Below, in pieces: positions 30,212 through 53,109 of a DNA stretch of 64,000 nucleotides (within the stretch, counting starts at the first letter, position 1; each line of letters opens with the position of its first letter). The notes under the pieces are model-generated. The model saw only the letters and a program-made list of their open reading frames with translations, was not told the origin of the DNA and ran no database searches. The translations under genes and the position numbers were made by a program. Origin of the DNA: Virgibacillus ndiopensis (GTDB lineage Bacteria > Bacillota > Bacilli > Bacillales > Amphibacillaceae); NCBI RefSeq assembly GCF_900187325.1, contig NZ_FZMZ01000004.1:310001-374000 (forward strand), given 5' to 3'.

Positions 30212-30216
30212 TAACC

Positions 30217-35167: not shown

Positions 35168-35179
35168 AAACATTTCCTC

Positions 35180-36958: not shown

Positions 36959-37027
36959 GGGATATCAAATCCTCTTTTAGTGCGTGTTCAAAAAGAAAAA
37001 TAGAGCTACCTTTTTCAACAGCCTTTC

Positions 37028-38179
37028 TTAATTTTTCTGCATTCCTCTGATCAGCACATTCGCAACTTCTGGACGTGAAAATTCTTTTGGCGGACGTATA
37101 CCGTTCTGAAGCATTTCACGCACTTTTGTACCACTTAAGTGGACATGATTTTCCTTGTCGTGCGGACATGTTTTTGCGGATGCCATATTTTCACAGACTT
37201 TGCAGTAAAACGCATGTTCAAATTTGAAAATCTGAATGCCAAGTTCCTCTTCATATTGAGCTATCAGCTCTTGAGCTTCATATGTCCCATAGTAGTCACC
37301 GACACCAGCATGATCACGTCCGACAATAAAATGTGTGCAGCCATAGTTTTTTCGCACAATTGCATGTAGGATCGCTTCTTTCGGTCCCGCATAGCGCATG
37401 GCCGCCGGATAAATAACAAGACGTACACGATCTTTCACATAATAGTTTTCTAAAATCGTTTTATAGCTTTCCATCCGGATGTCCGCCGGTATATCATCAG
37501 ATTTTGTTTCGCCAACAAGCGGATTCAGCAGCAAGCCATCCACAGACTCTAGTGCTGTCTTTTGAATATGTTCATGCGCACGGTGAACCGGGTTACGTGT
37601 CTGGAAGCCAACGATTGTTTTCCAGCCTAGGCCTTCAAACATCTTACGTGTTACTGCCGGATCCATATAATGTTCTGCAAACTGACTGTGATCCGGACGA
37701 TTAAGCAGTGTAATCTTTCCGCCAAGATACATATTTTCTTTCTCATAGACTTTCTTCACACCGGGATGCGCCGCATCAGTCGTGCCATAGATACTTTGTA
37801 CTTCCTTCTTTTTATCATATGCATATTTTTCGGCCAGGGTGAGAGTTCCATAGATGATGTCATCTTTTCCCCTAAGAGCAATTTGTTCACCAATGGTAAG
37901 GTTTTTAGCCTGTTCTTCGGTTACCGGTAGTGTAATTGGAATACTCCAGATCATCCCATCCGCAAGACGCGTATTGTTAACGACATTCTCATAATCAGCC
38001 TGCACCATAAATCCTGTCAGTGGACTGAAACCGCCTATCCCAATCAATTCCATATCAGAAATCACCCAGGAATTGACAGTTATTGACTGAAGCTTTTCAG
38101 CATTCTTGATTGCCTCATTTCTATTCAGTCCAGTTAATTCGCGGCTGATTAATCTCCCACCATGTGGTTGATTGACCAT
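37028..38179 (-). CDS. sat: Sulfate adenylyltransferase (ATP sulfurylase), Sat/MET3 type
   Basis: A 383-residue monofunctional enzyme that makes APS from sulfate and ATP. Active-site motifs are [15 protein letters not shown] (about 197-211) and [12 protein letters not shown] (about 290-301). The zinc-binding [15 protein letters not shown] (about 318-332) is typical of bacterial Sat. The length is that of the family (about 380-390). AGGGGGG lies before the ATG. It is the first gene of the sat-SLC13-cysC-cysQ operon. No S-box riboswitch motif is seen in the 400 bp upstream, unlike many sulfur-assimilation operons. Confidence 0.96.
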
Positions 38180-38593: not shown

Positions 38594-39463
38594 TTAATCT
38601 TTCTCTAAATTATTTTCAACATCGTACCCAGCCAATGTTTCTTGCATCCATGTATCATATAATTCCTGCACTTTTTGTTCGAATAATGTCTCTTTAATCT
38701 CCTCCTTTGCATCTTCAAAAGTTGCCTCTTTAGCTTGATTATGGTCTGTTACCTTAATAATATGGTAGCCATATTCCGTTTTTACTGGTTCACTATATGT
38801 GTCTACTTCTAACGAGAAGGCAGTATCCTCAAACGCTTCTTCCATTTCTCCTTTTCCAAAGTAGCCTAGTTCTCCTCCACTTTCAGCAGTAGAAGTATCG
38901 GTGGAATATTCTGCTGCTAGTTCCGCAAAATCCTCTCCTGCATCCAATTTTTCTATCACTTTATTCGCAGTTTCCTCATCATCTAACAAAATATGACTGG
39001 CTTGTACTTCTTCTTGCTGCGAGAAACTATCTTTATTCTCTTCAAAATAGGTTTTCATTTCTTCATCGGTAATTTCAATATCATCAGCCATCAATTTGTT
39101 CGTTGCAAGGTACAGCTCGATATCTTTTTCAACTGTTGAGATATCTGTTCCATTGGATTCCAATACCGATTGAAAAGCCTCTTCTCCGCCATAATACTCT
39201 TCATATTCCGTCATTTCTTCATCAATTTCTTCTTGCGATACTTTAATACCTTCTTTTTCAATTTCTGCCTCAATTACCTTTTGATTAATCAATGAATTTA
39301 ACACATCTGGACCATACTGGGAAACAAGCGTTTCGTTTAACTCATCTTTACTAATTTTTTCACCATTAACCCTTGCTACATAAGAATCTTTATTTAATAT
39401 GAAGATACAAACTATTAGTGCAACAGCAATAACTGCCCCACCTATCCAATATAAAACTTTCAT
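38594..39463 (-). CDS. PrsA-like membrane-anchored parvulin peptidyl-prolyl isomerase
   Basis: A 289-residue exported foldase. A membrane anchor (residues 3-27, VLYWIGGAVIAVALIVCIFI) is not followed by a proper lipobox, so it is probably signal-anchored rather than lipidated. An N-terminal SurA-like helical part carries VNGEKISKDELNETLVSQYG. The parvulin domain (about 155-250) has QASHILLDDEETANKVIEKL, GGELGYFGKGEMEEAF and VKTEYGYHIIKV. It helps secreted proteins fold outside the membrane. It lies directly after htrA, whose stop overlaps the upstream region, so the two are co-transcribed: foldase and protease for secretion stress. Start ATG at 39463 behind GAGGG. Confidence 0.92.
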   Translation of the reverse strand: MKVLYWIGGAVIAVALIVCIFILNKDSYVARVNGEKISKDELNETLVSQYGPDVLNSLINQKVIEAEIEKEGIKVSQEEIDEEMTEYEEYYGGEEAFQSVLESNGTDISTVEKDIELYLATNKLMADDIEITDEEMKTYFEENKDSFSQQEEVQASHILLDDEETANKVIEKLDAGEDFAELAAEYSTDTSTAESGGELGYFGKGEMEEAFEDTAFSLEVDTYSEPVKTEYGYHIIKVTDHNQAKEATFEDAKEEIKETLFEQKVQELYDTWMQETLAGYDVENNLEKD

Positions 39464-39473
39464 GATTATCCCT

Positions 39474-40724
39474 CTATTCATTTATTTGTTGCGTACTTTC
39501 TAGTGTTACATCTACTTCCGAGAATTCACCATTGCGATAAAATTGAATGGTAGCAACATCACCTACCGCAAGCTTCGTATACAAATATTGTCTAAGTTCA
39601 CTAGAATCGGATATTTTCTGATCGTTGATAGAAACGATGATATCTTCCATTTGTAATCCCGCTTGGGCAGCCGTACTATTTTCATCAACAGCTGCTACCA
39701 CAACACCATCTGTGATATCACGAGATATATTTTGCAAATAGTATTGTGGAATTTCTGATAGATTTACCATGGAAACTCCTAGATACGGGCGAACAATTTG
39801 GCCATTTTTGGTTAATTCATCTATAATCGTAACGACATCATTGCTCGGTATAGCAAAGCCCAATCCCTCTACATTTTCTTCTGCTATTTTCATGCTGTTA
39901 ATCCCTACTAGTTCCCCTGAAGTATTAATCAGTGCTCCACCGCTATTTCCAGGATTAATTGCTGCGTCTGTTTGAATAACTTCCGTTTCCCAAGCTCCAG
40001 CTGAATTAGAAGTTTCAATTGTTCTGTTCACAGCACTTACAATTCCTTGCGTAACCGTTCCATATAAATCGAGTCCTAGGGGATTTCCGATTGCAATGAC
40101 CTTATCTCCAGCCCTTAGTTCTGATGAATCACCAACTGCTACTGGTGTAATATCATAGCTTCCATTTACTTTCAATACGGCAATATCTGTTAACGAATCG
40201 GATCCAACCAATTCAGCTGTTACAACACTTTCATCATAGAGTGTCAATTCAATCTCTGTGGCACCTTCAATGACATGATGATTCGTCACTATGTATAGTA
40301 CGTCATCCGTTACCTTGTAAATGACACCTGAACCTGTTCCACTTGCAACTTCCCCGCCATTTTGATTTTGACCGAAGCCATTACCAAATGGATTAACTGA
40401 TTGCTGATTTTGGATATTTGTTATGCCTACGATTGCTTTGGATGCCTTTTCCACAATATCTGCGGTGGAAGTGGAAGTTGTAGTCGCTGTAACCTGTTCT
40501 ACATTTACAGAAGAATTATCCTGTTCAGTTGCGGTCACTTCTTTGAGGACTTCCGTTGTTTTATCATCACTGAAATAATCTAATTGAGGAGCTATGGTTA
40601 ATGTCAAAACAGAACCAATCACACCTGCTCCCAAGGTCGTACAAACACATTTGAACATGGGTTTTTTCGCCTTTCTTTTTTCATCGTTTGATTCTATTGT
40701 TTGATTTTCTTGATTCTCTACCAT
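39474..40724 (-). CDS. htrA: HtrA/DegP-family membrane-anchored serine protease with PDZ domain
   Basis: A 416-residue surface protease and quality-control factor. Residues 1-20 are cytoplasmic, and a membrane helix is at about 25-47 (CVCTTLGAGVIGSVLTLTIA). The trypsin-like domain has catalytic His in YIVTNHHVIEGA, Asp in LVGSDSLTDIAVLKV and Ser in INPGNSGGALINTSG. The PDZ domain (about 315-405) has RPYLGVSMVNL and AAQAGLQMEDIIVSINDQKI. A 22-bp box shared with assT and the VTC operon lies 67-88 bp upstream. The adjacent two-component system is the likely regulator, as CssRS is for HtrA in B. subtilis. Confidence 0.95.
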   Translation of the reverse strand: MVENQENQTIESNDEKRKAKKPMFKCVCTTLGAGVIGSVLTLTIAPQLDYFSDDKTTEVLKEVTATEQDNSSVNVEQVTATTTSTSTADIVEKASKAIVGITNIQNQQSVNPFGNGFGQNQNGGEVASGTGSGVIYKVTDDVLYIVTNHHVIEGATEIELTLYDESVVTAELVGSDSLTDIAVLKVNGSYDITPVAVGDSSELRAGDKVIAIGNPLGLDLYGTVTQGIVSAVNRTIETSNSAGAWETEVIQTDAAINPGNSGGALINTSGELVGINSMKIAEENVEGLGFAIPSNDVVTIIDELTKNGQIVRPYLGVSMVNLSEIPQYYLQNISRDITDGVVVAAVDENSTAAQAGLQMEDIIVSINDQKISDSSELRQYLYTKLAVGDVATIQFYRNGEFSEVDVTLESTQQINE

Positions 40725-40790: not shown

Positions 40791-40812
40791 GAATGTGTCA
40801 GGTAAATGTCAG
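40791..40812 (-). promoter_or_regulatory. Shared 22-bp regulatory box upstream of htrA
   Basis: On the minus strand CTGACATTTA is followed by CCTGACACATTC: two TGACA half-sites 11 bp apart. The same box stands upstream of assT and of the VTC operon. The spacing suits a response-regulator dimer of the OmpR family. Confidence 0.75.
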
Positions 40813-40858: not shown

Positions 40859-40888
40859 AAATAACAGCTAACGAATGTTAGCTGTTAT
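40859..40888 (-). terminator. Terminator of the two-component operon
   Basis: ATAACAGCTAAC pairs exactly with GTTAGCTGTTAT over 4 nt, then TTTTTATT on the minus strand. The stem overlaps the histidine-kinase stop codon. Confidence 0.88.
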
Positions 40889-42296
40889 CTTTTGGCAAAT
40901 AGATACGAAAAGTTGTACCATCGGATGAACTTTTTTGTAACACCAAATCTCCATCTAATGCTTGGGCAATCATTTTACTTAAAGACAATCCCAGACCAAG
41001 TCCTCTTACTTTATATTTCTTGCCTTTTCCTCGGTAAAACCGTTCAAATATAAATGGTTGTTCATTTTCAGGTATGCCATTTCCTGTATCTGTAACATCA
41101 ATCATTATTTCTGTTTCTTGTTCGGTTACCGTAATACTTATTTGGCCCTGGTTCAACATCGCTTGGGTAGCATTGTTAAGCAAATTCGTCATAATTTGTT
41201 GAAACCTTATTGGATCAATGCTTATTTGAGTTGGTTTTTCAGGTAAAGAAAGTTCGATTTGCATTGAACCATTATCTTGAGCAACTTTCCAGCTATATAC
41301 AGCCTCTTCCACTATATCATGGGTAGAATGCATTGCTTTATTTACTTGTACCGCATTAGTGGCAAATTGGTTAAATGCAAGCAAGTCCTCTACCATTTTT
41401 TTCATTTTTTCTGTTTCGTTTAGCGATATAGTTAAAAACTCTTTTGCTTCATCTCCTGTTACTACATCATCTTTTATTGCTTGGAGCAATCCACTGATGG
41501 AAGTAACAGGAGTTTTTAACTCGTGTGTTACACCTGCTAACAGTTCTGTACGAAGAGACTCCAGCTTTTCCAGCTTTATTGTCATTTCCTTAAAAGAATG
41601 GATAAGTTCATGTACTTCTTTTTCTTTGCTTTGATCTGGAAGCTCAATTTGATAATTCCCTTCTGCAACAAGTATAGCAGCATTTGCAACGTCCTTAATC
41701 GGTTTTGATAAACGATTTGATAAAATGTATATGGCAGCCCAACCAAGCAATGCAAGACTTATGATCATAATTGCCAATTGCGTATATTCCTGGTTTACCC
41801 GTGATAAATTTTGTTCAGATTCAATCATGACTACCCAACCAATAATCGTTTCATCTACTTCTATCGGAGCTTTTACAGCGTAAAAATTCTTATCTTTAAT
41901 TGCAAGTTCTTGAATCGTATTATCATTTTCTAGAATGGACGGATATAATTGCTGATCCATTGGACCTCGTCGTGGATCACTTGAAATAATTTTTCCTTCC
42001 GCATCAACAATATACGTAAATGGATCACTTTCCAATTCGACTTTCGCCTTTCTGTCTTCAAAAAATTTGGGCATATTCCGATCAGGGGAAGGTCCATGTT
42101 CTTGCGTCGTAACAATCCTGTCTGCCATGCTCCTTGCGACAATAGACATCATATCTAACCGATTTTCCAATGTATTATGCCGTATCCATAATGCAGAAAT
42201 AATTGCAATGACAATGAGTCCGATACAGAGGGTTAATAGATATCGGCTTATCCAATATCTTCGTAATGAAACACGTTTGTTATTTTTTGTAAACAC
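40878..42296 (-). CDS. Membrane sensor histidine kinase
   Basis: A 472-residue sensor. It has a first membrane helix at about 13-38, an external PAS/CACHE-like domain at about 40-172 (FTYIVDAEGKIISSDPR) and a second helix at about 173-193. HAMP follows (about 194-247). The HisKA phospho-site is LAGVTHELKTPVTSISG (about 254-270). HATPase motifs are QIMTNLLNNATQAM (N box), DTGNGIPENEQPFIFERFYRG (G1/F) and RGLGLGLSLSKMIA (G2). It starts at GTG inside the end of the regulator gene, so translation is coupled. It probably senses envelope or secretion stress, from its neighbours. Confidence 0.94.
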   Translation of the reverse strand: MFTKNNKRVSLRRYWISRYLLTLCIGLIVIAIISALWIRHNTLENRLDMMSIVARSMADRIVTTQEHGPSPDRNMPKFFEDRKAKVELESDPFTYIVDAEGKIISSDPRRGPMDQQLYPSILENDNTIQELAIKDKNFYAVKAPIEVDETIIGWVVMIESEQNLSRVNQEYTQLAIMIISLALLGWAAIYILSNRLSKPIKDVANAAILVAEGNYQIELPDQSKEKEVHELIHSFKEMTIKLEKLESLRTELLAGVTHELKTPVTSISGLLQAIKDDVVTGDEAKEFLTISLNETEKMKKMVEDLLAFNQFATNAVQVNKAMHSTHDIVEEAVYSWKVAQDNGSMQIELSLPEKPTQISIDPIRFQQIMTNLLNNATQAMLNQGQISITVTEQETEIMIDVTDTGNGIPENEQPFIFERFYRGKGKKYKVRGLGLGLSLSKMIAQALDGDLVLQKSSSDGTTFRIYLPKDNS

Positions 42297-42969
42297 TAAA
42301 CTGATACCCCAATCCCCGAAGTGTTTTAATTTCTCCTTCCGAATTCGGCCAATCCTTTAAGGCTTTTCTAATTCGTTTTATTGCAAGGTCTACAGCACGA
42401 TCACTACCGTTATAATCCCATCCCCAAATATGCTCAATTAATTGCTCTCTAGTAAAGGTTTGATTCGGATTTTCTGCTAAAAAGATAAGCACCGACAAGT
42501 CTCGTGGTGTAAGAATGACGTTCTTTCCATCAACTGTTATTTGATGTGCCTTTAAATTTAATTCCAATTGTCCATATCGTTTTATAGGATGTTCATTATC
42601 AACCTGTGACCGTCTTAACACAGCTTTCACACGAGCAACTACTTCATCCGCAACAAATGGTTTAGAAATATAATCATCTGCTCCTTCATTTAAGCCCTCT
42701 AATCGATAGTTCACATCCCCAAGAGCAGTAAGCATAATAACCGGGCAATTGCTCTTCAGCCGAATTTCTTTTAAAATTTCCCAGCCATCCTTATTCGGTA
42801 GCATAACGTCTAACAATACAAGATCAGGATAGCCTGTATGAAATTTTTCCAATGCTTCCTCCCCATCAAAAGCCTGTTCAACCTGATAATTAACCTTCTG
42901 CAAATACGCTTTCAGCACTTGGCTGATTGCATATTCATCTTCTACAACTAAAATCTTGACTGCCATCAT
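42280..42969 (-). CDS. OmpR-family response regulator
   Basis: A 229-residue regulator. The receiver domain has the acidic pocket VVEDE, phospho-Asp in LVLLDVMLPNKDGWEIL and the Lys in ADDYISKPFVADEVVARVKA. The winged-helix DNA-binding domain (about 130-229) ends with REQLIEHIWGWDYNGSDRAV, DLAIKRIRKALKDWP and LRGLGYQF. It is co-transcribed with the kinase. It is the best candidate to bind the three 22-bp TGACA boxes. The start is ambiguous between closely spaced GTG and two ATG codons after AGGTGG/AGGTG. About 70 bp of this gene recur as a decayed copy at 27.7 kb. Confidence 0.94.
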   Translation of the reverse strand: MMAVKILVVEDEYAISQVLKAYLQKVNYQVEQAFDGEEALEKFHTGYPDLVLLDVMLPNKDGWEILKEIRLKSNCPVIMLTALGDVNYRLEGLNEGADDYISKPFVADEVVARVKAVLRRSQVDNEHPIKRYGQLELNLKAHQITVDGKNVILTPRDLSVLIFLAENPNQTFTREQLIEHIWGWDYNGSDRAVDLAIKRIRKALKDWPNSEGEIKTLRGLGYQFSVYKK

Positions 42970-43080
42970 CGACACCTGTCACCACCTGAATTCCGATAAA
43001 TTTTCACGATATTTCTTCTTTCTAACAATAATACACAAACACGGCAACATAAAGCCATCTAATCACCCACCTATAAAGAA

Positions 43081-43117: not shown

Positions 43118-44806
43118 TTATTTACCAATTTCATATTCCCATTTATCATTGTAAAGCGAATATCTTTCAGCGCGATAGCCCCATGCTCCTTCTGGAAAGT
43201 CTGTTACGTAAGCTTCCATTAGCGTGTTCCCAGCTTCATCCACTTCAAAAATACTGCTCTTTAGACCTTCATTCATATGACCAAAGTCAATCAAGCGATT
43301 TCCTGTTTTAGACATATAACGAGCACTTCCTATAATGTTCGTAAAGTATGCTTTGCCGAATTCTTCACCGAAACTCCAAACTTCTTCCACTGTTTTTTCC
43401 ATTTCGTTAATCCGATACTGAACTGCACGGCTAAAGTCCTTTGATTGATCTTCGTCCCCACGGGTTACAACCGTATTATTGTCATACAATAGAATGTCAA
43501 TGGTATTTTCGTTGTTATCTTGATCTGGTAATATGATCGGTGCATGTTGTCCAGCAGAGAACTTAACACCATCATCCGTTGGCATTAACAAATAATTTTG
43601 ATATTCTCCCTGCCATCCTTCTTCGTCTGCCATTATCCATATGATATCCGTTGTTTCATAATCTAATTTCATCACTAAATCCTGGTTTCGGCTAGAAATT
43701 ATGATGCTATCATCTCCTTCATCGTACACAACTGCATTTTGATGAAACCAGTCTATCACTCCATCGTCTCGATTTGTTGAATCATAGTTTTCATAGAATT
43801 CACTTGGTAAAATGTCTTTTAGATCAATGGATTTCACAATTTCTCCTGTTTCACGATCAATTTCAATCATAATATCTTCTATATAATCTCCATCCGTTGC
43901 ACCATTAACTGTCAACAGCAAATTATTATTGGGTAATTCAATTGCATCATGATGTACCATGGTTGATTCTAGTGATCCTCCTTCAGAAATCGTAACGTCA
44001 GCATTTAATTGATACACTTCGTAGTATTTCCCGAGATAATCCATTTCCACTAATTGATTATACGTGCTCCCGTCATTATCTTCTTTTGTCAAATATAAAA
44101 TATGACCATTTTCTAGCTCTTTGAATACATGGCTATTATAACGAGAATTATACCAACGAACATCACCATTGGTATCAAAAGCAAATGCATATTTGGTACT
44201 TGGGACATAAAATGTTAACGTGCTATCATCAAGTTCCATTTCCTCTGTATTAGCTTTTTCTACATTAGTTGTACCAATATAGTCAGGCAATGCTTCAGTT
44301 GTGATATGAAGTGTCTGCTCTGAACGATCACCGCTTTCTGTTTCAACCGTAATCTGTACTCCATTTGTTGTGTCACTAAGTAAGCCGAGAACCGGAATTG
44401 CATGGGTCGTCTTATCATCATTAAATGTATTTGTAATCGCTGTATCATCCGTAGCTCCAGGCACCTTAACAGTTATTTTTGCAGGTTCTTCTGTCTCAAA
44501 TAAAACAAGTGCCGTTAGTGGAGAATTTCCATATGGATCTTGAACAACTAACATATTATCTTCCGTATATGCCCCCTTTTCTAATTTCTTTAAATAAGAT
44601 TGTTCCAGTTCTTCCTGTTTATCAATTTTCTCTTCTAGCATGGTAATTGTAATTCCATGTGTGTCCACTCCTAAATTGTTTGTTATATGTTTAGACTCAT
44701 CCACGATATCTTCCTTACTAGTTTCTGCCATTGTGTTGCTAATCACTAAAGTTGTTAGCAAGATTATGATAGCAACAATAAGCAGAGGTTTCATTTTTTT
44801 CCACAT
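43118..44806 (-). CDS. assT: Exported arylsulfate sulfotransferase (AssT type)
   Basis: A 562-residue secreted or membrane-anchored enzyme that transfers sulfate between phenolic compounds without PAPS. A signal/anchor is at about 6-27 (LLIVAIIILLTTLVISNTMA). An N-terminal beta-sandwich (about 85-175) is followed by a beta-propeller with the active-site segments STMVHHDAIELP, DWFHQNAVVYD, SSRNQDLVMK and SAGQHAPIILPD, holding the His/Asn/Arg residues expected for AssT. The protein has no cysteine at all, whereas the E. coli enzyme needs a disulfide. It is divergent from the VTC operon and preceded by the shared 22-bp box. The donor and acceptor are unknown. AGGAG precedes the ATG. Confidence 0.9.
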   Translation of the reverse strand: MWKKMKPLLIVAIIILLTTLVISNTMAETSKEDIVDESKHITNNLGVDTHGITITMLEEKIDKQEELEQSYLKKLEKGAYTEDNMLVVQDPYGNSPLTALVLFETEEPAKITVKVPGATDDTAITNTFNDDKTTHAIPVLGLLSDTTNGVQITVETESGDRSEQTLHITTEALPDYIGTTNVEKANTEEMELDDSTLTFYVPSTKYAFAFDTNGDVRWYNSRYNSHVFKELENGHILYLTKEDNDGSTYNQLVEMDYLGKYYEVYQLNADVTISEGGSLESTMVHHDAIELPNNNLLLTVNGATDGDYIEDIMIEIDRETGEIVKSIDLKDILPSEFYENYDSTNRDDGVIDWFHQNAVVYDEGDDSIIISSRNQDLVMKLDYETTDIIWIMADEEGWQGEYQNYLLMPTDDGVKFSAGQHAPIILPDQDNNENTIDILLYDNNTVVTRGDEDQSKDFSRAVQYRINEMEKTVEEVWSFGEEFGKAYFTNIIGSARYMSKTGNRLIDFGHMNEGLKSSIFEVDEAGNTLMEAYVTDFPEGAWGYRAERYSLYNDKWEYEIGK

Positions 44807-44851: not shown

Positions 44852-44873
44852 GAATAAGTCAGGAATATGTCAA
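44852..44873 (-). promoter_or_regulatory. Shared 22-bp regulatory box upstream of assT
   Basis: The minus strand reads TTGACATATT then CCTGACTTATTC, with TGAC half-sites 11 bp apart, 46 bp before the assT start. It is the same box as upstream of htrA and the VTC operon. Confidence 0.72.
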
Positions 44874-44954: not shown

Positions 44955-44976
44955 TTGACATTTTCCTGACACATTC
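44955..44976 (+). promoter_or_regulatory. Shared 22-bp regulatory box upstream of the VTC operon
   Basis: The plus strand reads TTGACATTTT then CCTGACACATTC, about 97 bp before the VTC-domain gene and pointing toward it. It is nearly identical to the htrA box. In the same 266-bp gap the assT box points the other way. Confidence 0.75.
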
Positions 44977-45072: not shown

Positions 45073-45774
45073 ATGCCAATTCAAACCTCATTTAATCCAA
45101 ATGGTCGAAATGAGCTGAAGCATGCTGTTTCAGTGGCAGAATATCAAGTATTACGTAGTAAACTTCTGCACTTTATGAAAAGAGATCCAAACGCAGGTTC
45201 AAATGGCCGTTATGTCATACGTTCCACTTATTTTGATAACTTTGATAATAGGATTTTGACCGAAAAGAAAGAAGGCTATCTAAATCGTGATAAATACCGC
45301 GTTCGTACATACGGGAATCATGATTGCATAATTAATCTTGAACGTAAAAGCAAGCGAAACAACTTAACATTTAAAACAAAATGCCACATAACGCACAAGG
45401 AATATGAAGAAATGCGAGTTGGTAACATTCTTTGGATGGAAGAAGACGAACGCGATCTAATCCGTGATTTATTTTCAGAAATGAAATATCGTCAATTAAA
45501 ACCGATTACCGTTGTTGATTATGAACGAGAAGCCTTTATTTACCCTTTTGGGAATGTTCGTGTCACGTTTGATTTGAAGGTAAAATCAAGCTTGCAAAAT
45601 ACAGATATGTTTCATAAACATTTACCAATGGTTGATGTGCTAGAGACGAATCTAGTTATTTTAGAAGTAAAATATGACAAATACCTACCGGATGTGATTA
45701 CCCATTTACTACAGTTTTCAGATACAAGACAAGAGGCGTATTCAAAATATCAATTGAGTCGCATGTATGGATAA
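45073..45774 (+). CDS. VTC-domain (polyphosphate polymerase-like) protein
   Basis: A 233-residue protein consisting of one VTC domain, the catalytic tunnel fold that makes polyphosphate in yeast Vtc4. Conserved basic and acidic tunnel residues are visible: NELKHAVS, YVIRSTYFDN, DKYRVRTYG, INLERKSKRNN, TVVDYEREAF, RVTFDLKVKS and the end LVILEVKYDKYLPDVI. The function in bacteria is not settled; polyphosphate or another phosphate-polymer synthesis is the family-based guess. It starts an operon with a DUF4956 membrane protein and a Cthe_2159-type lipoprotein. A GAAGGAGGG site precedes the ATG. Confidence 0.9.
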   Translation: MPIQTSFNPNGRNELKHAVSVAEYQVLRSKLLHFMKRDPNAGSNGRYVIRSTYFDNFDNRILTEKKEGYLNRDKYRVRTYGNHDCIINLERKSKRNNLTFKTKCHITHKEYEEMRVGNILWMEEDERDLIRDLFSEMKYRQLKPITVVDYEREAFIYPFGNVRVTFDLKVKSSLQNTDMFHKHLPMVDVLETNLVILEVKYDKYLPDVITHLLQFSDTRQEAYSKYQLSRMYG

Positions 45775-45803
45775 ATACATAAAAAATGATAGGAGATTAG
45801 AAT

Positions 45804-46493
45804 ATGGATACAAACACAACAAACTTTTCAGATATTTTTAAATCTAGCTTTTTAGAAACGTCCGGGTCATTCTCTATTGTAGATTCACTGCTTGGACTAG
45901 CGGTAGCATTTTTAATCGGATTGTATATATACGCAATATATAAGAAAACATTTAATGGGGTTATTTACTCCCACTCGTTTAACATTTCATTAATCATTAT
46001 GACAATGACCACATCTTTAGTCATTATGGGAATCAGCCAAAACATAGTGTTATCACTAGGTATGGTTGGCGCGTTATCAATTGTTCGTTTTCGTACACCA
46101 ATTAAAGATCCAATAGATTTAGTTTACTTATTCTGGTCAGTCATTACAGGTATCCTAAGTGGTGCTGGTTTTCTTTTGTTAGCTATCATCGGAGCAATCG
46201 TGATCGGTCTTGTAATTGTTTTATTCGCAAACAAAATAAAGGTGGAAAATCCATACCTATTGGTAATTAAGTTTGATAAAAACCTAGTAGGCAAAGAAAT
46301 TCAACAAATCATCCAAGAAAGAACAAAGAAATTTGCATTAAAATCAAAATCGGTTATCCAAAATCATCAAACGGAAGTAACTTATGAGATTCGCGTAAAA
46401 GAAAATGATTCAAGTATTACATCAGAAATTTCAACTATCAAAGGCGTGCAGTCTGCAGTGATGCTAAGCTACGATGGAAACTTTACAGCGTAA
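45804..46493 (+). CDS. DUF4956 membrane protein
   Basis: A 229-residue protein with about four to five helices in its first 145 residues (about 28-48, 58-80, 85-100, 108-145). The conserved loop LGMVGALSIVRFRTPIKDP lies between helices and is the DUF4956 signature. A cytoplasmic alpha/beta tail (about 150-229) has YLLVIKFDKN and VTYEIRVKE. In many Firmicutes this family is encoded next to VTC-domain proteins, and together they are thought to act as a membrane unit. It lies 30 bp after the VTC gene with a TAGGAGA site. Confidence 0.9.
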   Translation: MDTNTTNFSDIFKSSFLETSGSFSIVDSLLGLAVAFLIGLYIYAIYKKTFNGVIYSHSFNISLIIMTMTTSLVIMGISQNIVLSLGMVGALSIVRFRTPIKDPIDLVYLFWSVITGILSGAGFLLLAIIGAIVIGLVIVLFANKIKVENPYLLVIKFDKNLVGKEIQQIIQERTKKFALKSKSVIQNHQTEVTYEIRVKENDSSITSEISTIKGVQSAVMLSYDGNFTA

Positions 46494-46497
46494 AGAG

Positions 46498-46529
46498 GAA
46501 AGTAGATTTGAATTATCGAATCTACTTTC
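46498..46529 (+). terminator. Hairpin between DUF4956 and Cthe_2159-type genes
   Basis: GAAAGTAGATT pairs exactly with AATCTACTTTC over a 10-nt loop. No long T-run follows, so it may only lower transcription of, or protect the mRNA before, the third gene. Confidence 0.6.
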
Positions 46530-46579
46530 TAAACATATCGTTGTATCAATAAGCATACGTTAAAAAGGATGAATAATAG

Positions 46580-48697
46580 ATGAATAACAGGGTTAATATT
46601 TTTTGCCTTTTATTGTTTAGTGTTGTTTTCATTATTAGTGGTTGTAGTAGCGATACGAAAACAAGTGAATCAGAAACTGATGAGCTTGTACGTAGGCTAG
46701 TTACTTATAACAGTGAAGATAGTTACACTGCTTGGAATGATGAGGACGTCACTTACATTAATTTAAATGAAACAAGCACAACTGCGGATGGAAACGATGG
46801 CGTTATTGTAGATGATAACCAAATAGCCATCCGAACTACAGGAACGTATGTTGTAGAAGGAACATTGGAAGATGGACAAATTCTTGTAGATGCTGAAGAT
46901 GATGGTACCGTTCGAATTGTTTTAAATGGTGCATCGATTCACTCTTCAACGAGTGCACCAATCTATGTGAAACAAGCGAATAAAATGGTGATTTCTCTCG
47001 AAAAAAATACAGAGAATGTGGTTTCTGATGCAACAGAATACGTTTTTGAAGAAGAAGAAACAGATGAGCCAGAAGCTGCTATTTTTAGTAAAGATGATTT
47101 AACGATCAACGGTTCTGGAACATTGACAGTAAACGGAAATTATAATGATGGCATTACAAGTCGAGATGACTTAAAAATTGCTGGAGGTATTATCGAAGTT
47201 ACATCGGTTGATGATGGGATTGTTGGTAGGGACTTATTGGCTATGAAAGGTGCAACGGTATCTGTAACAGCAACTGGTGACGGAGTAAAAGCCTCCAATG
47301 ATGAAGATGAATCGAAAGGAAACATCGTTTTAGAAAGTGGCACTTTGAAAGTCAAGGCGGAAGGTGATGGAGTTCAGGCTGAAAAGACAGTGGCTGCGGC
47401 AGGTGGGAAATACTCCATTGTGTCTGGTGGCGGTAGCCCAGAAACGATTGAGAGTACTGATGAATTAGGTAGAACTGGTAAGGGCCAGTTTAATCCTGGT
47501 GATACTGAAGAAGGAACAGAAGGTATGCCACAAATGCCAAATGGCGACGAACCATCTGCAGGAACAGAAGGTATGCCGCAAATGCCAAATGACGAACCGC
47601 CCGAAGAAACAGAAGATATGCCGCAAATACCAAATGGCAACGAACCGCCTGAAGAAACAGAATCAGAAGATACGATCAGTACAAAAGGTATTAAAGCAGG
47701 TACAGAACTTATTATTGCAGGTGGAACATTTTCAATTGACTCGCTTGATGATGGACTTCATAGTGACCAAAATTTAACTATTTCTGGTGGCAAAATCAAT
47801 ATATCTACTGGTGACGATGCTATTCACGGAGATGAAGATCTAGCGATTAATGGTGGCACAATAGCTATTAAAAAAAGTCTAGAAGGTATTGAAGGTGTTA
47901 ATGTTACGATTGCTGACGGTACGATCCACATCAATGCTGAAGATGATGGTGTCAACGTTAATAGTGGTAGCAGTGACTTCGGAAAACCTGGTATGAATGG
48001 TACCAAAGCTCCTAACGCTAATAAAACAACTGAAGAAACAGCAGACCAAGGTAAATTATTAATCGAAGGCGGCTACTTATACGTTAATGCAAATGGGGAT
48101 GGATTAGATTCAAATACTTCTATAAAAATGACTGATGGGACGGTTATTGTTTATGGTCCAACCTCGTCTGGGAATGGGGCTCTAGATTACGATCAGTCGT
48201 TTCATATCGAAGGCGGTATTTTAGTTGCAGCAGGCAGCAGTGGCATGGCACAGGGAATTTCAGATACTTCGCCTCAGCATGCTGTTATGATGACATTCGC
48301 TGAAATGCAAAAAGCCGGGACTACTGTATATATGGAAGATAGAAATGGTAAACAAGTATTTGCTATCGCTCCTGAAAAATCCTATCAAACCATAATAATA
48401 AGCACACCAGATCTTGCCAATGAACAAACATATACCTTAAATTCAGGCGGTGTGTTGACCGGAAAAAATAAAGACGGATTGTACGAAGCAGCAGAATATG
48501 AGGATGACTCACCATCTGTAGAATTTACATTATCCGATATGATGACATACTTAGATGAATCTGGTGTAACAGAAGCACCGTCAAATAGTATGTTTGGCGG
48601 GCGCGGTCACAACGGCATGGAAGGCGTAGAACGATTTAACACTGATCAAAAAAAGAAAACTGAAGAAGACAAAGTAATCAATAATTATATAAAATAG
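46580..48697 (+). CDS. Cthe_2159-type beta-helix lipoprotein (carbohydrate-binding domain)
   Basis: A 705-residue exported lipoprotein. The signal peptide ends with lipobox ISGC (Cys at about 22). Beta-helix repeats follow (about 70-290 and 370-600) with recurring motifs such as DDLTINGSGTLTVNGNYNDG, DDGLHSDQNLTISGGKINIS and DGVNVNSGS, rich in acidic loops suited to calcium or glycan binding. Between them, about 300-365, lies a Pro/Glu/Met-rich repeat linker (GMPQMPNGDEP, GMPQMPNDEPP, DMPQIPNGNEP). The family binds acidic sugars such as polygalacturonate in the one studied case. A Gly/Met-rich tail ends it. It forms an operon with the VTC and DUF4956 genes. Confidence 0.87.
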   Translation: MNNRVNIFCLLLFSVVFIISGCSSDTKTSESETDELVRRLVTYNSEDSYTAWNDEDVTYINLNETSTTADGNDGVIVDDNQIAIRTTGTYVVEGTLEDGQILVDAEDDGTVRIVLNGASIHSSTSAPIYVKQANKMVISLEKNTENVVSDATEYVFEEEETDEPEAAIFSKDDLTINGSGTLTVNGNYNDGITSRDDLKIAGGIIEVTSVDDGIVGRDLLAMKGATVSVTATGDGVKASNDEDESKGNIVLESGTLKVKAEGDGVQAEKTVAAAGGKYSIVSGGGSPETIESTDELGRTGKGQFNPGDTEEGTEGMPQMPNGDEPSAGTEGMPQMPNDEPPEETEDMPQIPNGNEPPEETESEDTISTKGIKAGTELIIAGGTFSIDSLDDGLHSDQNLTISGGKINISTGDDAIHGDEDLAINGGTIAIKKSLEGIEGVNVTIADGTIHINAEDDGVNVNSGSSDFGKPGMNGTKAPNANKTTEETADQGKLLIEGGYLYVNANGDGLDSNTSIKMTDGTVIVYGPTSSGNGALDYDQSFHIEGGILVAAGSSGMAQGISDTSPQHAVMMTFAEMQKAGTTVYMEDRNGKQVFAIAPEKSYQTIIISTPDLANEQTYTLNSGGVLTGKNKDGLYEAAEYEDDSPSVEFTLSDMMTYLDESGVTEAPSNSMFGGRGHNGMEGVERFNTDQKKKTEEDKVINNYIK

Positions 48698-48725
48698 TAG
48701 TACAAATGAAAGTTTGTACTACTAT
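48694..48725 (+). terminator. Hairpin ending the VTC operon
   Basis: ATAGTAGTACAAA pairs exactly with TTTGTACTACTAT over a 6-nt loop (13-bp arms), overlapping the stop codon. The T-run after it is short. Confidence 0.75.
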
Positions 48726-49069
48726 TCCTTTAATACACGCATCAATCCATACCTTTTTTTGCGCTTCCACTGCCTTGTTTTAGAAATATGATCCTTACCA
48801 AACTCTTATTGGAGGAGTATATATTGAGTAAAGTTTTTAAGGAACACTACTTGTAATGATTAGAATATGCCAAGTTCAAGTTGGTGGCTATTTTCATCAA
48901 GCTTTCACATTCCTATTATATTATCTAATTAAAACTATCAGTGATCTATAAGTTTCAAATGATTGTATTGTTTGTTCAATTGTTTGACCTAATACACTGT
49001 GTAATGAAACACATTGCATCAATTCTTTTACTGTTCCATTACTATTTCCTCTTTTAAACTAACATTGTG
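48726..49069. other. Gene-free gap; palindrome at its right end
   Basis: No gene is supported in this 344-bp gap; only frames under 35 codons occur. A 10-bp perfect palindrome, TTTTAAACTA (49052-49061) with TAGTTTAAAA (49071-49080), overlaps the end of the TauE-like gene and may act as its weak terminator. Confidence 0.5.
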
Positions 49070-49855
49070 CTAGTTTAAAATATCAAACCAAATTTTTACT
49101 GCTGTCCCTGAAATCAATATCCCCAAGATCCATTGGAGGTAATTCGTATTTACCTTCTTCCCTCTAGTTGCACCTAATGGAGATGCGATTAAACTCGCAA
49201 CGATCATGATCGCTGCTGGTATAAATAATACTTGACCTGTCATTATTTTACTCGATGTGGCACCCATAGACGAGATAAATGTAATGGCCAAAGACGAAGC
49301 AATTGTTATTCTCGTTGGTATCTTCAACACAACCAGCATAATAGGAACTAACAGAAACGCACCCCCAGCACCCACAATGCCGGCACCAATTCCAACAATT
49401 AGTGCAAGTAGTGATGCAATCCATTTATTAAAATTAACGGTATCAAATGATGTTTCATCGCCACCTTTTTTAGGCATGAACATCATGATTACGGCAAGTA
49501 AAGCCAATACACCATATATCACATTTACGCCTTCTTCAGACATATAAGAGGAAAATAATCCTCCTGCAAAACTACCGATTAATACACTTATGCCCATGTA
49601 GCCAATAAGGCTTTTATTTAAATATCCTCCTTTTCGATATGCCCAGACTCCACCTATTGTTGCAAATAGCACTTGAATAGCTGTAATACCCGAAACTTCA
49701 TATACACTAAAATTGGCAATTCCTAAGGCAGCAGGGATATATAACAGCATCGGATAATTAATAATTGCCCCGCCAATCCCAACCATGCCAGATATAAATG
49801 ATCCAACAAAACCAATTAAAAAAATAGAAATAATAAAAACAAAACTAATTTCCAT
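49070..49855 (-). CDS. yrkJ: TauE/SafE-family sulfite or sulfur-anion exporter
   Basis: A 261-residue membrane protein with about eight helices. It shows the two-fold family pattern: [20 protein letters not shown] in the first half and [20 protein letters not shown] in the second. Such proteins export sulfite, thiosulfate or related sulfur anions. It ends the yrk-type operon, the position of B. subtilis YrkJ. The start is the ATG at 49855 after AGGGGGAA; an upstream in-frame start lacks support. Export of products of persulfide oxidation is the likely role. Confidence 0.9.
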
Positions 49856-49901
49856 ATAATTCCCCCTTAACAAGAGGGGACCCAAAGCAAATGGGCCACC
49901 T

Positions 49902-50129
49902 TTATGCCTTTTTTATCCAAAACTTGAGTACACCGTCTTCTTCCGTATTTTCAAGGATTTCATGACCGCCAGATTTTGCCCATGCAGTAAGGTCATTTTT
50001 AGCCCCTTTATCTGTCGCATGAACCTCCAAAACGTCACCAGAATTAATTTCATTCATTCCTTTTTTCGTTTTAACGATTGGCATTGGACATGCTAATCCC
50101 TTTGCATCTAATACTTTTGTTGCTTCCAT
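49902..50129 (-). CDS. yrkI: TusA-like sulfur carrier
   Basis: A 75-residue TusA/SirA-fold protein. The active Cys is in [18 protein letters not shown] (CPxP motif, Cys14), the site that carries a persulfide. It ends [20 protein letters not shown], close to the TusA domain of the YrkF-like protein in the same operon. It probably relays sulfane sulfur between the rhodanese and oxidase components. AGGAGG precedes the ATG. Confidence 0.93.
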
Positions 50130-50146
50130 TATTTCTCCTCCTCTAA

Positions 50147-51277
50147 TTATCCTTCAACCGCACAACGGTTAGGACCTGTTTCCATTTCTTTTTGTTTATC
50201 TGTATCAGGTGTAATTTTTCCCATATTTGTTTTACGAATATCTTCATATGCATTAGGTTGTGGTGGAAGATTTTCGGTTACCATTTTTCTAAATTCATTT
50301 TCATCTTCTACTTGTAAACCTGAATTTCGCCCGTAAAGATCGCCTAAACGAGCCGATACTTTACCACCCTTACCTAGTTCTTCTGCAAATGAATAATGTG
50401 CAGGTAGCACCATTAAATCTTCAGATAACTCTTTATATCGAGAGTAGAGCGTATTACGAAGGTCTCCTACCCAATCTTCTACTAATCCAGCTAAGTCTGG
50501 GCGACCGATTGACTTAACAAAAAGAATATCGCCGGTCAGTAAATACGTATCATCGACAATAAATGACGTGCTTCCAATAGTGTGCCCCGGCGAATACACA
50601 GGTTGTACTTGTACGGAAGTATTTCCTACGATAATGTCCTTACCATCTTCAAGTGGTGTATAATCAAACGTCACTTCTGTAGCGTCTTTTGGTGGCAAGT
50701 AATACTCTCCCTCAACTTTTTCTGCTAATTTGCGTCCACCAGAAATGTGGTCGGCATGTAAATGGGTGTCAATGACATGTTTGATTTGAGCACCTTGTTC
50801 CTTAGAAAAGTCTTCATAAATGTCAATCATACGGTTGGCATCCACAATTGCGGCTTCTCCGTTTGATACGATAAAGTAGGAAAGGCAACCTTTACCAAGA
50901 CGAACAAACTGATAAAGACTTCCTCCGTCACTCAAATCTCCAATTTTTACAGGTTCTAAGTGTTCACTCCATGCTTTCATGCCACCTTCTAGACTATAAA
51001 CATTGGTATAACCTGCTTCCTCAATGAAATCAGCGATCATTTCCGATGAACCGCCTTTTGCACAAACAACAATAATTTCCTGATCCTTTTGTAATTTGTC
51101 GGCTATTGGATCAATACCATCCAATAAGTTAAAGTAAGGCTCATTAATTACTTCAACTTTTTCACCCTCAATTTTCCAATTATCGAATTCGTCTGTATTT
51201 CGCACATCCAAAATTAGTGTTTCTTCGTGATTAATTACCTTTTTTGCCAACTTTTTCGTTGTAATTGTTTTAGACAT
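50147..51277 (-). CDS. yrkH: Rhodanese-metallo-beta-lactamase fusion (persulfide dioxygenase-like)
   Basis: A 376-residue enzyme. The N-terminal rhodanese domain (about 1-105) has the active-site loop [11 protein letters not shown] with a catalytic Cys. The metallo-beta-lactamase domain (about 120-330) has [31 protein letters not shown] and LPAHYS, the metal ligands of ETHE1-like persulfide dioxygenases. The fusion order (rhodanese first) is as in B. subtilis YrkH and reversed relative to staphylococcal CstB. It should oxidise low-molecular-weight persulfides to sulfite or thiosulfate. The second ATG of an ATG-ATG pair fits the GGAGGG site better. Confidence 0.92.
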
Positions 51278-51292
51278 CATTTCCCTCCTAAA

Positions 51293-51691
51293 TTAAAATG
51301 TTAATGTGATATTGGCATCTTTTGCATACTCAATGAATGTGGCTGCCCCGCCAACTTCAATTCCGTTAATAAAAGCATCTTTCTCTAAATTCATGAGATC
51401 CATAGTCATTTGACAGCCAATTAATTTAATCCCCAATTCTTGTGCTATGCCCACTAGTTCTTCAATAGATGGAACGTTTGTTTGCTTAAATCCTTCCTGA
51501 AAATGCTCTTTTCCTTCTGGTAGCGGAAGATTTTTGTGTGCTTCCTTGTGAATTAAATTCAATCCTTCGAATGTGAAGAAAATTCCTACCTCCGCATCAG
51601 ACGCTGCTGCCGCTGTTGCTACGTTAAATACCTTATACGCATCAAATAGAGTTCCGTTTGCTGCAATAATTGCTACTTTTGTGTTTGCCAT
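51293..51691 (-). CDS. yrkE: DsrE/DsrF-like sulfur-relay protein
   Basis: A 132-residue protein of the DsrE/DsrF fold (NTKVAIIAANGTLFDAYKVF, then EVGIFFTFEGLNLIH). A Cys sits in IKLIGCQMTMDLMNLEKDAF, the conserved position of the family. Members pass sulfane sulfur between partners and often occur with TusA and rhodanese genes. The start is the ATG at 51691 after GGAGGAATTTAAA. It lies between the YrkF- and YrkH-like genes, the B. subtilis order. Confidence 0.92.
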   Translation of the reverse strand: MANTKVAIIAANGTLFDAYKVFNVATAAAASDAEVGIFFTFEGLNLIHKEAHKNLPLPEGKEHFQEGFKQTNVPSIEELVGIAQELGIKLIGCQMTMDLMNLEKDAFINGIEVGGAATFIEYAKDANITLTF

Positions 51692-51722
51692 TTTAAATTC
51701 CTCCAAATGTGTTTAATAGTTT

Positions 51723-52295
51723 TTAATTATTTTTTTCAGTTGGGCCTTCCCATTTTGTCATACCGGGTATTACATTTTTTACATTTTCAAAGCCCTTTTC
51801 AGTTAACTTTTGTGCGGCTAAATCACTGCGATTGCCTGTACGGCAAATGACATGAATTTCTTTGTCTTCATCAATTTCTGAAAACCTTTCTTCCAATTCC
51901 CCAAGGGGTATATTTACCGCACCAGTTATATGGCCAAATGCAAATTCAGCAGATTCTCGAACATCAAGTATGGTGATGGATTCTTCTCCGTTTATTTTGC
52001 TTCGCAGTTCTTCTAAGTTAATTACATCCTCATGTTTTGTCTCTTCCTTTGTTTCCTCATCTGTTGCTTTTCGTAAATAATGTTTTAGTACATTATCTTC
52101 TTCTATTGTCCCAAGGTACTGGTGCCCAGTACTACCTGCCCATGCCCTGATATCTGCAGTTGAACCCTTATCAGTCGCTTGAACTTCGATTACCTGACCG
52201 GGTTGTAGTTTCGTTATTGCTTTTTTGGTTTTGACGATCGGCATTGGACACGCTAACCCCTTTGCGTCTAGCGTTTCATTTGCTGTAATGTTCAT
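51723..52295 (-). CDS. yrkF: TusA-rhodanese fusion protein
   Basis: A 190-residue protein. The TusA domain (1-75) has [21 protein letters not shown] charged linker (about 75-95, TDEETKEETKHEDV) follows. The rhodanese domain (about 95-188) has ITILDVRESAEFAFGHITGA and the active loop HVICRTGNRSDLA with catalytic Cys. It should move sulfane sulfur from persulfides to carrier proteins. AAGGAGGAGC precedes the ATG. The TusA part is very like the separate TusA protein of the same operon. Confidence 0.93.
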   Translation of the reverse strand: MNITANETLDAKGLACPMPIVKTKKAITKLQPGQVIEVQATDKGSTADIRAWAGSTGHQYLGTIEEDNVLKHYLRKATDEETKEETKHEDVINLEELRSKINGEESITILDVRESAEFAFGHITGAVNIPLGELEERFSEIDEDKEIHVICRTGNRSDLAAQKLTEKGFENVKNVIPGMTKWEGPTEKNN

Positions 52296-52308
52296 TTAAG
52301 CTCCTCCT

Positions 52309-52404
52309 TTATTTCTCTACTTCATCTTCCCGGACGTCAATAATGGTTATGTTATCTCCGTTTTTTAATTTCTTTGCTAGTTCTCTCGCTGTTATTTCCT
52401 TCAT
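52309..52404 (-). CDS. Truncated rhodanese N-terminus (31 aa)
   Basis: With a good GGAGGGG site and ATG, this small frame codes for KEITARELAKKLKNGDNITI then IDVREDEVEK and stops. It matches the first about 30 residues of a rhodanese domain and lacks the catalytic loop. It is the first frame of the yrk-type operon, and its stop overlaps the ribosome binding site of the YrkF-like gene. It may be a gene remnant kept as a translated leader. I am confident it is a fragment, less so that it matters. Confidence 0.6.
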   Translation of the reverse strand: MKEITARELAKKLKNGDNITIIDVREDEVEK

Positions 52405-52450
52405 TACTTTTCCCCTCCAAATTGTTCATTTTTCTCTTCTCTTTTAGACA

Positions 52451-52478
52451 TTTTAAATACCGATATGGGTATTTAAAA
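52451..52478. promoter_or_regulatory. CstR/CsoR-type operator (28-bp palindrome)
   Basis: TTTTAAATACC (52451-52461) is perfectly complementary to GGTATTTAAAA (52468-52478) around a 6-bp centre. The ATACC...GGTAT core is the form bound by CsoR/CstR proteins. It sits about 50 bp before the first yrk-operon frame, so it probably controls that operon. Confidence 0.78.
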
Positions 52479-52524
52479 CAGCAAAAAATAAATTAATAAA
52501 TCCACATTTATCTTCCACAACATT

Positions 52525-52550
52525 TTATACATATAGGGGTAGGGGTATTT
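52525..52550. promoter_or_regulatory. Second CstR-type operator candidate
   Basis: ATACATATAGGGGTAGGGGTAT is GC-rich in the centre and resembles CsoR/CstR sites, though its arms are imperfect. It lies about 50-70 bp above the first palindrome, within the region between cstR and the yrk operon. Confidence 0.45.
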
Positions 52551-52638
52551 ATGTTTGCTAAAAAAATTGGGTTAACTACTTTTACTTAACCCACATTTTA
52601 TAATAAAAGCTTAAAAATATATTATCAACAAAACCTTC

Positions 52639-52899
52639 TTATCTACTTCTAACAAGTAAATTAACAGCTTCTTTAATCAGGTCTTCAGAGTTTCTGCCGT
52701 TTTCCTTTTCGTCACGAATACATTGTTCTAAATTTTTACTAACAATTAACGCAGCAGTACGATCGATAGCACTTCTGACTGCCGACATTTGCGTCACAAC
52801 ATCCCTACAATCTTTTTCTTCCTCCATCATTTTTAATAATCCTCTAACTTGTCCTTCAACACGTTTTACTCTATTTTTAGTTTGGGGATCGTATTTCAT
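52639..52899 (-). CDS. cstR: CstR-like persulfide-sensing repressor
   Basis: An 86-residue helical repressor of the CsoR/FrmR/RcnR family (B. subtilis YrkD position). Two Cys are placed as in CstR (EEEKDCRDVVTQ and NLEQCIRDEK). The His that CsoR uses next to its second ligand is absent, so it should react with persulfides rather than bind copper. It is upstream of the yrk-type operon on the same strand, with two operator-like sites between. The start ATG at 52899 follows AGGTAGGTG. A second CsoR-family gene (26.4 kb) in the window is the copper type. Confidence 0.9.
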   Translation of the reverse strand: MKYDPQTKNRVKRVEGQVRGLLKMMEEEKDCRDVVTQMSAVRSAIDRTAALIVSKNLEQCIRDEKENGRNSEDLIKEAVNLLVRSR

Positions 52900-53109
52900 A
52901 TAAACACCTACCTTTTCCTTCATCTATAATTAGAAAATATACCAGTTATCACCATTCTTTAGAGGCTGCAACAAACTCATACTACGTTTGCAAAAATGAA
53001 CATTCTACTGATGAAAAATAAACGAATAAGAAAATTAATTTTTATCATAGTACTTATGATCTTGAAAAAGAATGCAAATACACAATATACCCATCTAGGT
53101 ATGTTTGTC

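Follow-up and report, generated by a model that had tools for sequence, protein, structure and literature searches.

The 64,000-nucleotide stretch of Virgibacillus ndiopensis DNA analyzed here (NCBI RefSeq assembly GCF_900187325.1, contig NZ_FZMZ01000004.1, positions 310,001 to 374,000; hereafter the window) contains three consecutive forward-strand genes encoding a VTC-domain protein, a DUF4956 membrane protein, and an acidic lipoprotein of the Cthe_2159 beta-helix family (Table 1). They are separated by gaps of 29 nt and 86 nt, and are likely to form one operon. An initial annotation, made from the sequence alone, had placed the same open reading frames (ORFs) and families here, and Pfam comparisons agree with it: the VTC protein matches PF09359 (E 7e-36, 124.3 bits, cut-off 23), the membrane protein PF16316 (E 2e-10, 41.3 bits, cut-off 30.6), and the lipoprotein PF14262 (E 3e-100, 335 bits, cut-off 25.8, with two Cthe_2159 stretches). 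NCBIfam assigns no name to any of the three. The module is real, conserved, and better defined than in the initial annotation; its sequence supports polyphosphate (polyP) as a candidate product, and export of that product may follow. The wider interpretation that had been offered, a system that builds or modifies a surface polymer, is partly supported.

Table 1. Features of the VTC locus and its neighborhood (window coordinates).
Feature	Position	Strand	Length or basis
VTC-domain (triphosphate-tunnel) protein	45073..45774	+	233 aa; PF09359
DUF4956 membrane protein	45804..46493	+	229 aa; PF16316
Acidic Cthe_2159-family beta-helix lipoprotein	46580..48697	+	705 aa; PF14262
Box and promoter region of VTC operon, TTGACATTTTCCTGACACATTC	44955..44976	+	motif search
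Box copy in front of arylsulfate sulfotransferase (ASST), response regulator and kinase genes	44852..44873	-	motif search
Box copy in front of htrA and prsA-like genes	40791..40812	-	motif search
OmpR-type response regulator	42280..42975	-	PF00072 and PF00486
Sensor histidine kinase, HAMP-HisKA-HATPase	40878..42296	-	Pfam; 68% identical homolog in locus L042
HtrA/DegP-type membrane serine protease with PDZ, downstream of box	39474..40724	-	PF13365, PF13180; 65% homolog with box in L042
PrsA/SurA-type foldase (PPIC rotamase) adjoining htrA	38594..39481	-	PF13616 E 6e-28, SurA_N
ASST, between box and regulator gene	43118..44806	-	PF05935 E 4e-88
Perfect 15-bp hairpin in DUF4956-lipoprotein gap; possible attenuator or processing site	46497..46530	+	-24.4 kcal/mol, z -4.5
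Perfect 15-bp hairpin 3′ of lipoprotein gene; probable terminator, weak T run	48693..48726	+	-17.5 kcal/mol, z -6.6

The first two genes are tightly linked. VTC is present in 20 of 150 genomes of the order (Bacillales) at 22 places, and DUF4956 at 23; DUF4956 adjoins VTC at all 22 VTC loci, and the single lone DUF4956 match falls below the cut-off. Genomes scanned with the VTC alignment gave at least 579 confirmed loci, and at the best 80 of these (the named loci, all found by one motif) a six-frame profile search places DUF4956 beside VTC in every case. Among 14 control genomes, VTC and DUF4956 occur in the same three (those of Bacteroides ihuae, Corynebacterium glutamicum, and Methanosarcina acetivorans), as scored by co-presence at the genome level; two of the three match CotH and the third matches Cthe_2159. 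Random co-occurrence, which the initial annotation had named as an outcome that would count against it, is therefore rejected, given adjacency at 22 of 22 loci in the order and at 80 of 80 in the named set.

The third gene follows a different pattern. The CotH kinase had been noted as missing, and indeed there is no CotH match anywhere in the window's genome; nonetheless, CotH is replaced at this locus by Cthe_2159 rather than missing, because among the 80 named loci CotH is found within 6 kb at 52, Cthe_2159 at 21, neither at seven, and both at none. Simple loss of CotH is thus rejected, as Cthe_2159 fills its slot and the two never share a locus. At three of the seven loci with neither partner (L061, L090, and L126) a contig ends 1.5 kb or less from VTC, with the beginning of a CotH-like ORF visible by eye in L090; the other four (L080, L095, L108, and L112) are true blanks with no CotH and no Cthe_2159. 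Within the order, 15 of the 22 VTC loci have CotH about 2 kb away or less, another (G035) has CotH at roughly 15 kb, four have Cthe_2159 in a genome without a CotH match, and two (G039 and G081) have neither. CotH occurs in 40 of the 150 genomes (39 above cut-off) and Cthe_2159 in five, four of them above cut-off and all four 4 kb or less from VTC. The exclusion applies to the locus and not to the genome: seven of 13 CotH-type genomes also hold Cthe_2159 genes, which in five of them adjoin a second VTC, and Cthe_2159 genes apart from VTC also exist. Five genomes (G152, G154, G156, G157, and G162) carry two VTC modules each, one with CotH and one with Cthe_2159. A quick tree of 87 VTC proteins, built from the window, the 80 named loci, and six more, gives at least eight changes of partner, a parsimony count on a tree that carries a long-branch warning and has 36 weak branches among its 84 inner ones. 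The window belongs to a clade of six Cthe_2159 loci (support 97), nested within a nine-locus clade (support 99) in which the other three are of the CotH kind.

Although CotH and Cthe_2159 belong to different Pfam families, both look secreted. Among ORFs with a called start, a hydrophobic N-terminus is predicted in 50 of 50 CotH and 18 of 20 Cthe_2159 proteins, compared with 250 of 774 other ORFs; it is present in 0 of 71 VTC ORFs. The window lipoprotein is acidic as first described (pI 4.1, with 125 Asp and Glu versus 45 Lys and Arg), has the lipobox ISGC and a linker rich in Pro, Glu, Gly, and Met with GTEGMPQMPN repeats (both by eye), and a four-row profile of its family matches the structures 4peu/4phb (E 4e-53, 227 positions). 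Met-rich segments are able to bind Cu(I) or take up oxidants, and metal or oxidant binding is a possible role for linkers with at least six Met in 40 residues, which are found in 18 of 52 CotH and nine of 21 Cthe_2159 ORFs but in only 25 of 433 control ORFs (pooled Fisher P 6e-12, with controls of at least 300 aa, unmatched for composition, and loci that are related). Such linkers are also rich in Pro, Gly, Asp, and Glu in the CotH and Cthe_2159 ORFs of L049–L128. In L026 (6411–8867), L029 (10322–13420), and L030 (5582–8608) a CotH protein with leucine-rich repeats (identified by Pfam in L026 and L029, by cluster in L030) is encoded divergently from VTC-DUF4956, a different partner layout; and L048 (7033–10074), from a genome without VTC, encodes a 1013-aa LPXTG protein with PAP2 and PATR matches and a weak Cthe_2159 match.

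The stress box that the initial annotation had described as shared is real. Its sequence, TGACA-N6-TGACA, is a direct repeat such as OmpR-type regulators bind. Allowing up to three mismatches, TTGACATTTTCCTGACA has three matches in the window (0.32 expected), ahead of VTC, ASST, and htrA, and the form TGACATNTNCCTGAC occurs three times in the 3.85-Mb genome, all at this locus, with none for the reversed control. A wider form, TGACATNNNNNTGACA, was rejected: it has four matches in the genome, and the two outside the window, which by eye precede an antiporter-like ORF in one case and lie within an ORF in the other, are counted as chance because the reversed control gave three. The exact box is present in eight of 100 regions around VTC starts (0.05 expected), in a scan where the named-locus regions begin at open frames rather than called starts and the box of L054 fell outside. 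A two-component pair lies 4.5 kb or less from VTC in 33 of the 80 named loci, and nine loci including the window have a regulator at least 62% identical to that of the window (62–83% in the other eight). Each of the nine has a box, with one mismatch at most, before VTC, before a PrsA-like gene leading into VTC, or before the regulator gene. The targets in relatives are the VTC operon, the regulator gene (L033, L050, L052, L054, and L055), and the PrsA-like gene as the first gene behind the box (L055 and L056, homologs of 46–50%); htrA is preceded by a box in the window and L042. L034 and L049 have a box and no close regulator in the sequenced stretch examined. In 19 tabulated sites, picked by the box motif itself, the spacing to a TATAAT-like element is constant.

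The box thus marks a putative envelope protein-quality regulon, comprising the regulator, htrA, PrsA-like, and VTC genes, that is new here, and the OmpR-type regulator likely reads it. Control of HtrA by a two-component system is a mark of envelope stress, as described for CssRS, CiaRH, and PieRS (PMC12826053). The window pair resembles CssRS and PieRS in this respect, and PieRS also controls PrsA1/2 (PMC12826053). The window pair nevertheless scores 147.6 bits against a curated NCBIfam cut-off of 450 for PieR and 124 against 850 for PieS, and it differs from both systems in having a VTC operon as a target.

What the VTC protein makes is suggested by its active site. Its profile finds yeast Vtc4 (3g3q) in the PDB at E 6e-15, and its model (pLDDT 90) superimposes on Vtc4 3g3r with a VIA Z of 18.5 (rmsd 3.0 Å, 219 aligned); yeast VTC tunnel domains head the fold list (Z 15.3–18.5), with other tunnel enzymes at 15.0 or below. 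The profile alignment pairs R76 and R78 with R264 and R266 of Vtc4, and E198 and K225 are placed on E426 and K458 by motif and structural range (11–233 to 195–467). None of the four (numbered by our own count) varies, either among the order's 22 rows or among 60 rows drawn from the window and named loci. A Vtc4 R264A/R266A/E426N triple mutant served as a catalytically impaired form (PMC9911596), and the window protein thus appears to retain the catalytic residues of Vtc4, which supports polyP synthesis. The absence of active-site residues had been named in advance as a finding that would speak against the annotation; they are present and invariant, and since the co-occurrence check also came out in its favor, a phosphate-containing polymer was a fair guess.

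It is improbable that the protein is instead a tunnel enzyme of another activity – a tri- or polyphosphatase, a nucleotide cyclase, or a phosphotransferase. The motif that names the tunnel hydrolases and cyclases (CYTH type) is ExExK. The window protein has RxExK, with R12 and K200 basic and E14 acidic, all invariant, and so lacks the combination of ExExK and an acidic patch, of which one position is unplaced. A tunnel polyphosphatase has glutamates where Vtc4 has four basic residues (PMC4641920), and R12 and K200 fall in the acidic-patch register of the hydrolases (in our own register, with the fourth position unplaced). RxExK with its invariant E14 is compatible with another activity, as is the report that Vtc4p alone among four tunnel enzymes assayed made polyP (PMC4641920); retention of the named catalytic residues and VTC domains as the top fold matches argue for a polymerase.

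The DUF4956 protein is a distant relative of MgtC, a kinship that is new here. The hhalign comparison of DUF4956 with 18 MgtC rows (18 of 30 MgtC loci gave an ORF passing the filter) has P 2.1e-9 with 68 DUF4956 rows and P 1.3e-10 with 22 rows, whereas seven other families, reversed MgtC, and ten column-shuffled MgtC alignments are all at P 0.03 or worse. The similarity spans 139 columns, from the SLGMVGALSIVRFRT stretch through the C-domain. The relationship is nonetheless remote: there is no PF02308 (MgtC) match at E 0.01, and the RFRxxIK patch of DUF4956 is not seen in the aligned MgtC consensus (by eye). The model (pLDDT 78, pTM 0.61) has long hydrophobic helices, a short helix (81–95) ending in the invariant R95/R97, and a ferredoxin-like C-domain. 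Matches to this common domain fill the VIA and Foldseek lists, in which the transmembrane (TM) part is not represented; the C-domain of Mycobacterium tuberculosis MgtC (2lqj) is at rank 12 in Foldseek (E 2.7e-3), beneath ribosomal S6 and NikR. The protein has no PDB sequence match (best E 0.24), and a weak PAS_GdpP match (E 0.0045) is below that family's cut-off.

An action on ATP synthase and phosphate is ascribed to MgtC, and the kinship, together with the ferredoxin-like, ACT-like C-domain, might indicate that VTC makes polyP for the cytosol in the control of ATP or phosphate, that DUF4956 regulates it, and that the surface protein is merely co-regulated. This seems distinctly unlikely, as it does not account for a third gene that comes in two secreted-type kinds, which exclude each other at a locus. 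In yeast, the nascent polyP chain goes into a channel with a lining of basic residues (PMC9911596), and by analogy R95/R97 of DUF4956 could play a like role.

A third possibility is that the module serves an exopolysaccharide, with VTC and DUF4956 supplying phosphate for a glycan or regulating it and CotH or Cthe_2159 phosphorylating or binding it. The VTC/DUF4956/CotH core is already known in this setting, since cotH-PPP-DUF4956(-DUF4832) accessory genes are described beside Gram-positive pel operons in streptococci, clostridia, and bifidobacteria (PMC7112168), and at seven of the 22 loci of the order cotH-VTC-DUF4956 runs on from a pel-type operon (epimerase/GAF, DUF2194, DUF3492 glycosyl transferase, and PelG, named by Pfam at the single locus L037 and by ORF clusters at the remainder). 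Likewise, NELoc-2 of Clostridium perfringens contains VTC, CotH, and a glycosyl transferase (PMC2879425; VTC and CotH also in PMC11677781); the neighbors called tubulin/FtsZ GTPase in PMC2879425 are probably DUF4956, judging by size and place. Cellulose and the anionic polymer polygalacturonic acid are reported ligands of Cthe_2159 itself (PMC6712302), whose family is glycan-binding. We consider an exopolysaccharide role somewhat unlikely for the window, however. PelG, the one glycan gene scored at the 80 named loci, is absent within 6 kb of all of them, the PelG and PelF clusters have no member among the ORFs of window 28–57 kb, so that the module is not contiguous with pel genes, and the nearest glycan genes of the window (28–33 kb) have no box. 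The surface polymer of the initial annotation is accordingly half supported: most partners have a hydrophobic N-terminus and seven of 22 loci follow a pel-type operon, but the window module has no glycan-making gene. The window shares the VTC and DUF4956 pair with the pel accessory set and differs in lacking pel genes and CotH, in having Cthe_2159 as its third gene, and in sharing its box with a two-component system and htrA/prsA; the variant with Cthe_2159 and this regulon is new.

Several neighboring genes concern sulfur. ATP sulfurylase, a sulfate-type transporter, APS kinase, a CysQ-like phosphatase, and a sulfotransferase near polysaccharide genes (33765–38179 and 30208–30954) are possibly a sulfated-glycan cluster near ASST. 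A sulfated polymer as product of the module was rejected, because comparison with the ORFs of 103 other loci gave no second ASST match and the PAPS genes (33765–38179) have no box. L042 has the window layout without ASST, and ASST may therefore have been inserted behind the regulator's promoter. On the other side, 49070–52923 encodes TauE followed (by eye) by a rhodanese/persulfide dioxygenase-like protein, DsrE, a TusA-rhodanese, and a CsoR/CstR-type regulator, and looks like an ordinary sulfide-detoxification set. The first hairpin of Table 1 is not conserved in L042, where the DUF4956-lipoprotein gap is just 6 nt; the second was missed by a simple promoter/terminator scan, the output of which was at shuffle level.

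The explanation that we favor, tentatively, is that the module is a split bacterial VTC, induced by envelope stress, that synthesizes polyP at the membrane or across it. Envelope or secretion stress would act through the kinase and regulator pair on the TGACA-N6-TGACA boxes, inducing the VTC operon together with htrA and the PrsA-like foldase gene. In the cytosol, the VTC protein would transfer the gamma-phosphate of ATP onto a growing chain, and the MgtC-like DUF4956 protein, with its invariant basic patch R95/R97, would dock the enzyme at the membrane and couple synthesis to outward transfer of the chain, as the TM part does in yeast. Outside, the acidic Cthe_2159 lipoprotein (or CotH in relatives) would hold or use the chain, and external polyP may function as a chaperone, as a matrix, or in metal storage; polyP is said, in the title of a 2014 paper by Gray, to be "a primordial chaperone". 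The reported binding of an anionic polymer by Cthe_2159, and the lack of a PPK1 or PPK2 match in the window's genome, speak for this reading.

The proposed system is like the yeast VTC (Vtc1/Vtc3/Vtc4, a coupled polyP synthase and translocase) in the catalytic residues of its tunnel domain and in having a membrane protein alongside at every locus examined. It departs from it in that the window VTC is a single Pfam domain with no SPX sensor and no fused TM domain, and so is not a eukaryotic VTC complex, in a membrane part that is encoded separately and is MgtC-like, and in apparent two-component control in place of inositol pyrophosphate. The window lipoprotein likewise has the beta-helix family in common with Cthe_2159 (PDB 4PEU/4PHB) and is distinct from it as a 705-aa lipoprotein, with a Met/Pro/Gly/Glu-rich linker, tied to VTC.

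Several observations weigh against a polyP exporter under envelope stress. First, the yeast Vtc2 and Vtc3 domains are not the catalysts and also head the fold list, so that the fold alone is uninformative on activity, and E14, acidic and invariant where Vtc4 has Thr, is a half-step toward hydrolase-type sites. Second, although the window's genome has no PPK1 or PPK2 match, PPK1 is also present in 14 of the 20 VTC genomes of the order, and replacement of PPK by VTC is rejected as a general rule. Third, the DUF4956 model has a pTM of 0.61, and MgtC proteins are not known to be channels. Fourth, the lipobox is present in only four of 20 Cthe_2159 and two of 50 CotH ORFs, such that a lipid anchor is not general, and the known Cthe_2159 ligands are glycans. 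Fifth, the link between regulator and box is by association, and box control is particular to the window's relatives, because, of the 33 named loci with a two-component pair, 27 have a regulator that is 40% identical or less, or unscored, and none of these has the exact box. Finally, the literature available to us yielded no bacterial VTC of this type shown to make polyP.

Searches of the open-licence literature likewise yielded nothing tying Cthe_2159 to VTC, or VTC to a regulator common with htrA, and VTC is unmentioned in two main Cthe_2159 papers. Adapted or engineered Clostridium thermocellum strains do have mutations inside or immediately 5′ of a VTC gene (PMC10503014, PMC7063780). Beyond the initial annotation, the present analysis adds the regulator pair, the htrA/PrsA link, and the kinship of DUF4956 with MgtC; the retained Vtc4 residues in a genome with no PPK match, and the Met-rich linkers frequent in both partner types, are new as well.

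How bacterial polyP leaves the cell is an open question – a 2025 review of lactic acid bacteria describes active secretion and lysis as still to be distinguished (PMC12248826) – and a linked polymerase and membrane protein in Bacilli and Clostridia is a direct candidate. A bolder form, which we judge unlikely, is a dedicated polyP secretion machine, in which the tunnel polymerase would feed an MgtC-fold exporter and the exported chain would either join HtrA and PrsA as an inorganic chaperone or donate phosphate to secreted CotH kinases that have no ATP outside the cell; Cthe_2159 would then be an interchangeable receiver holding Ca-polyphosphate where CotH is absent. The MgtC kinship provides a first structural frame for DUF4956, and the regulon, if true, would extend the HtrA/PrsA arm of the envelope-stress response to an inorganic polymer.

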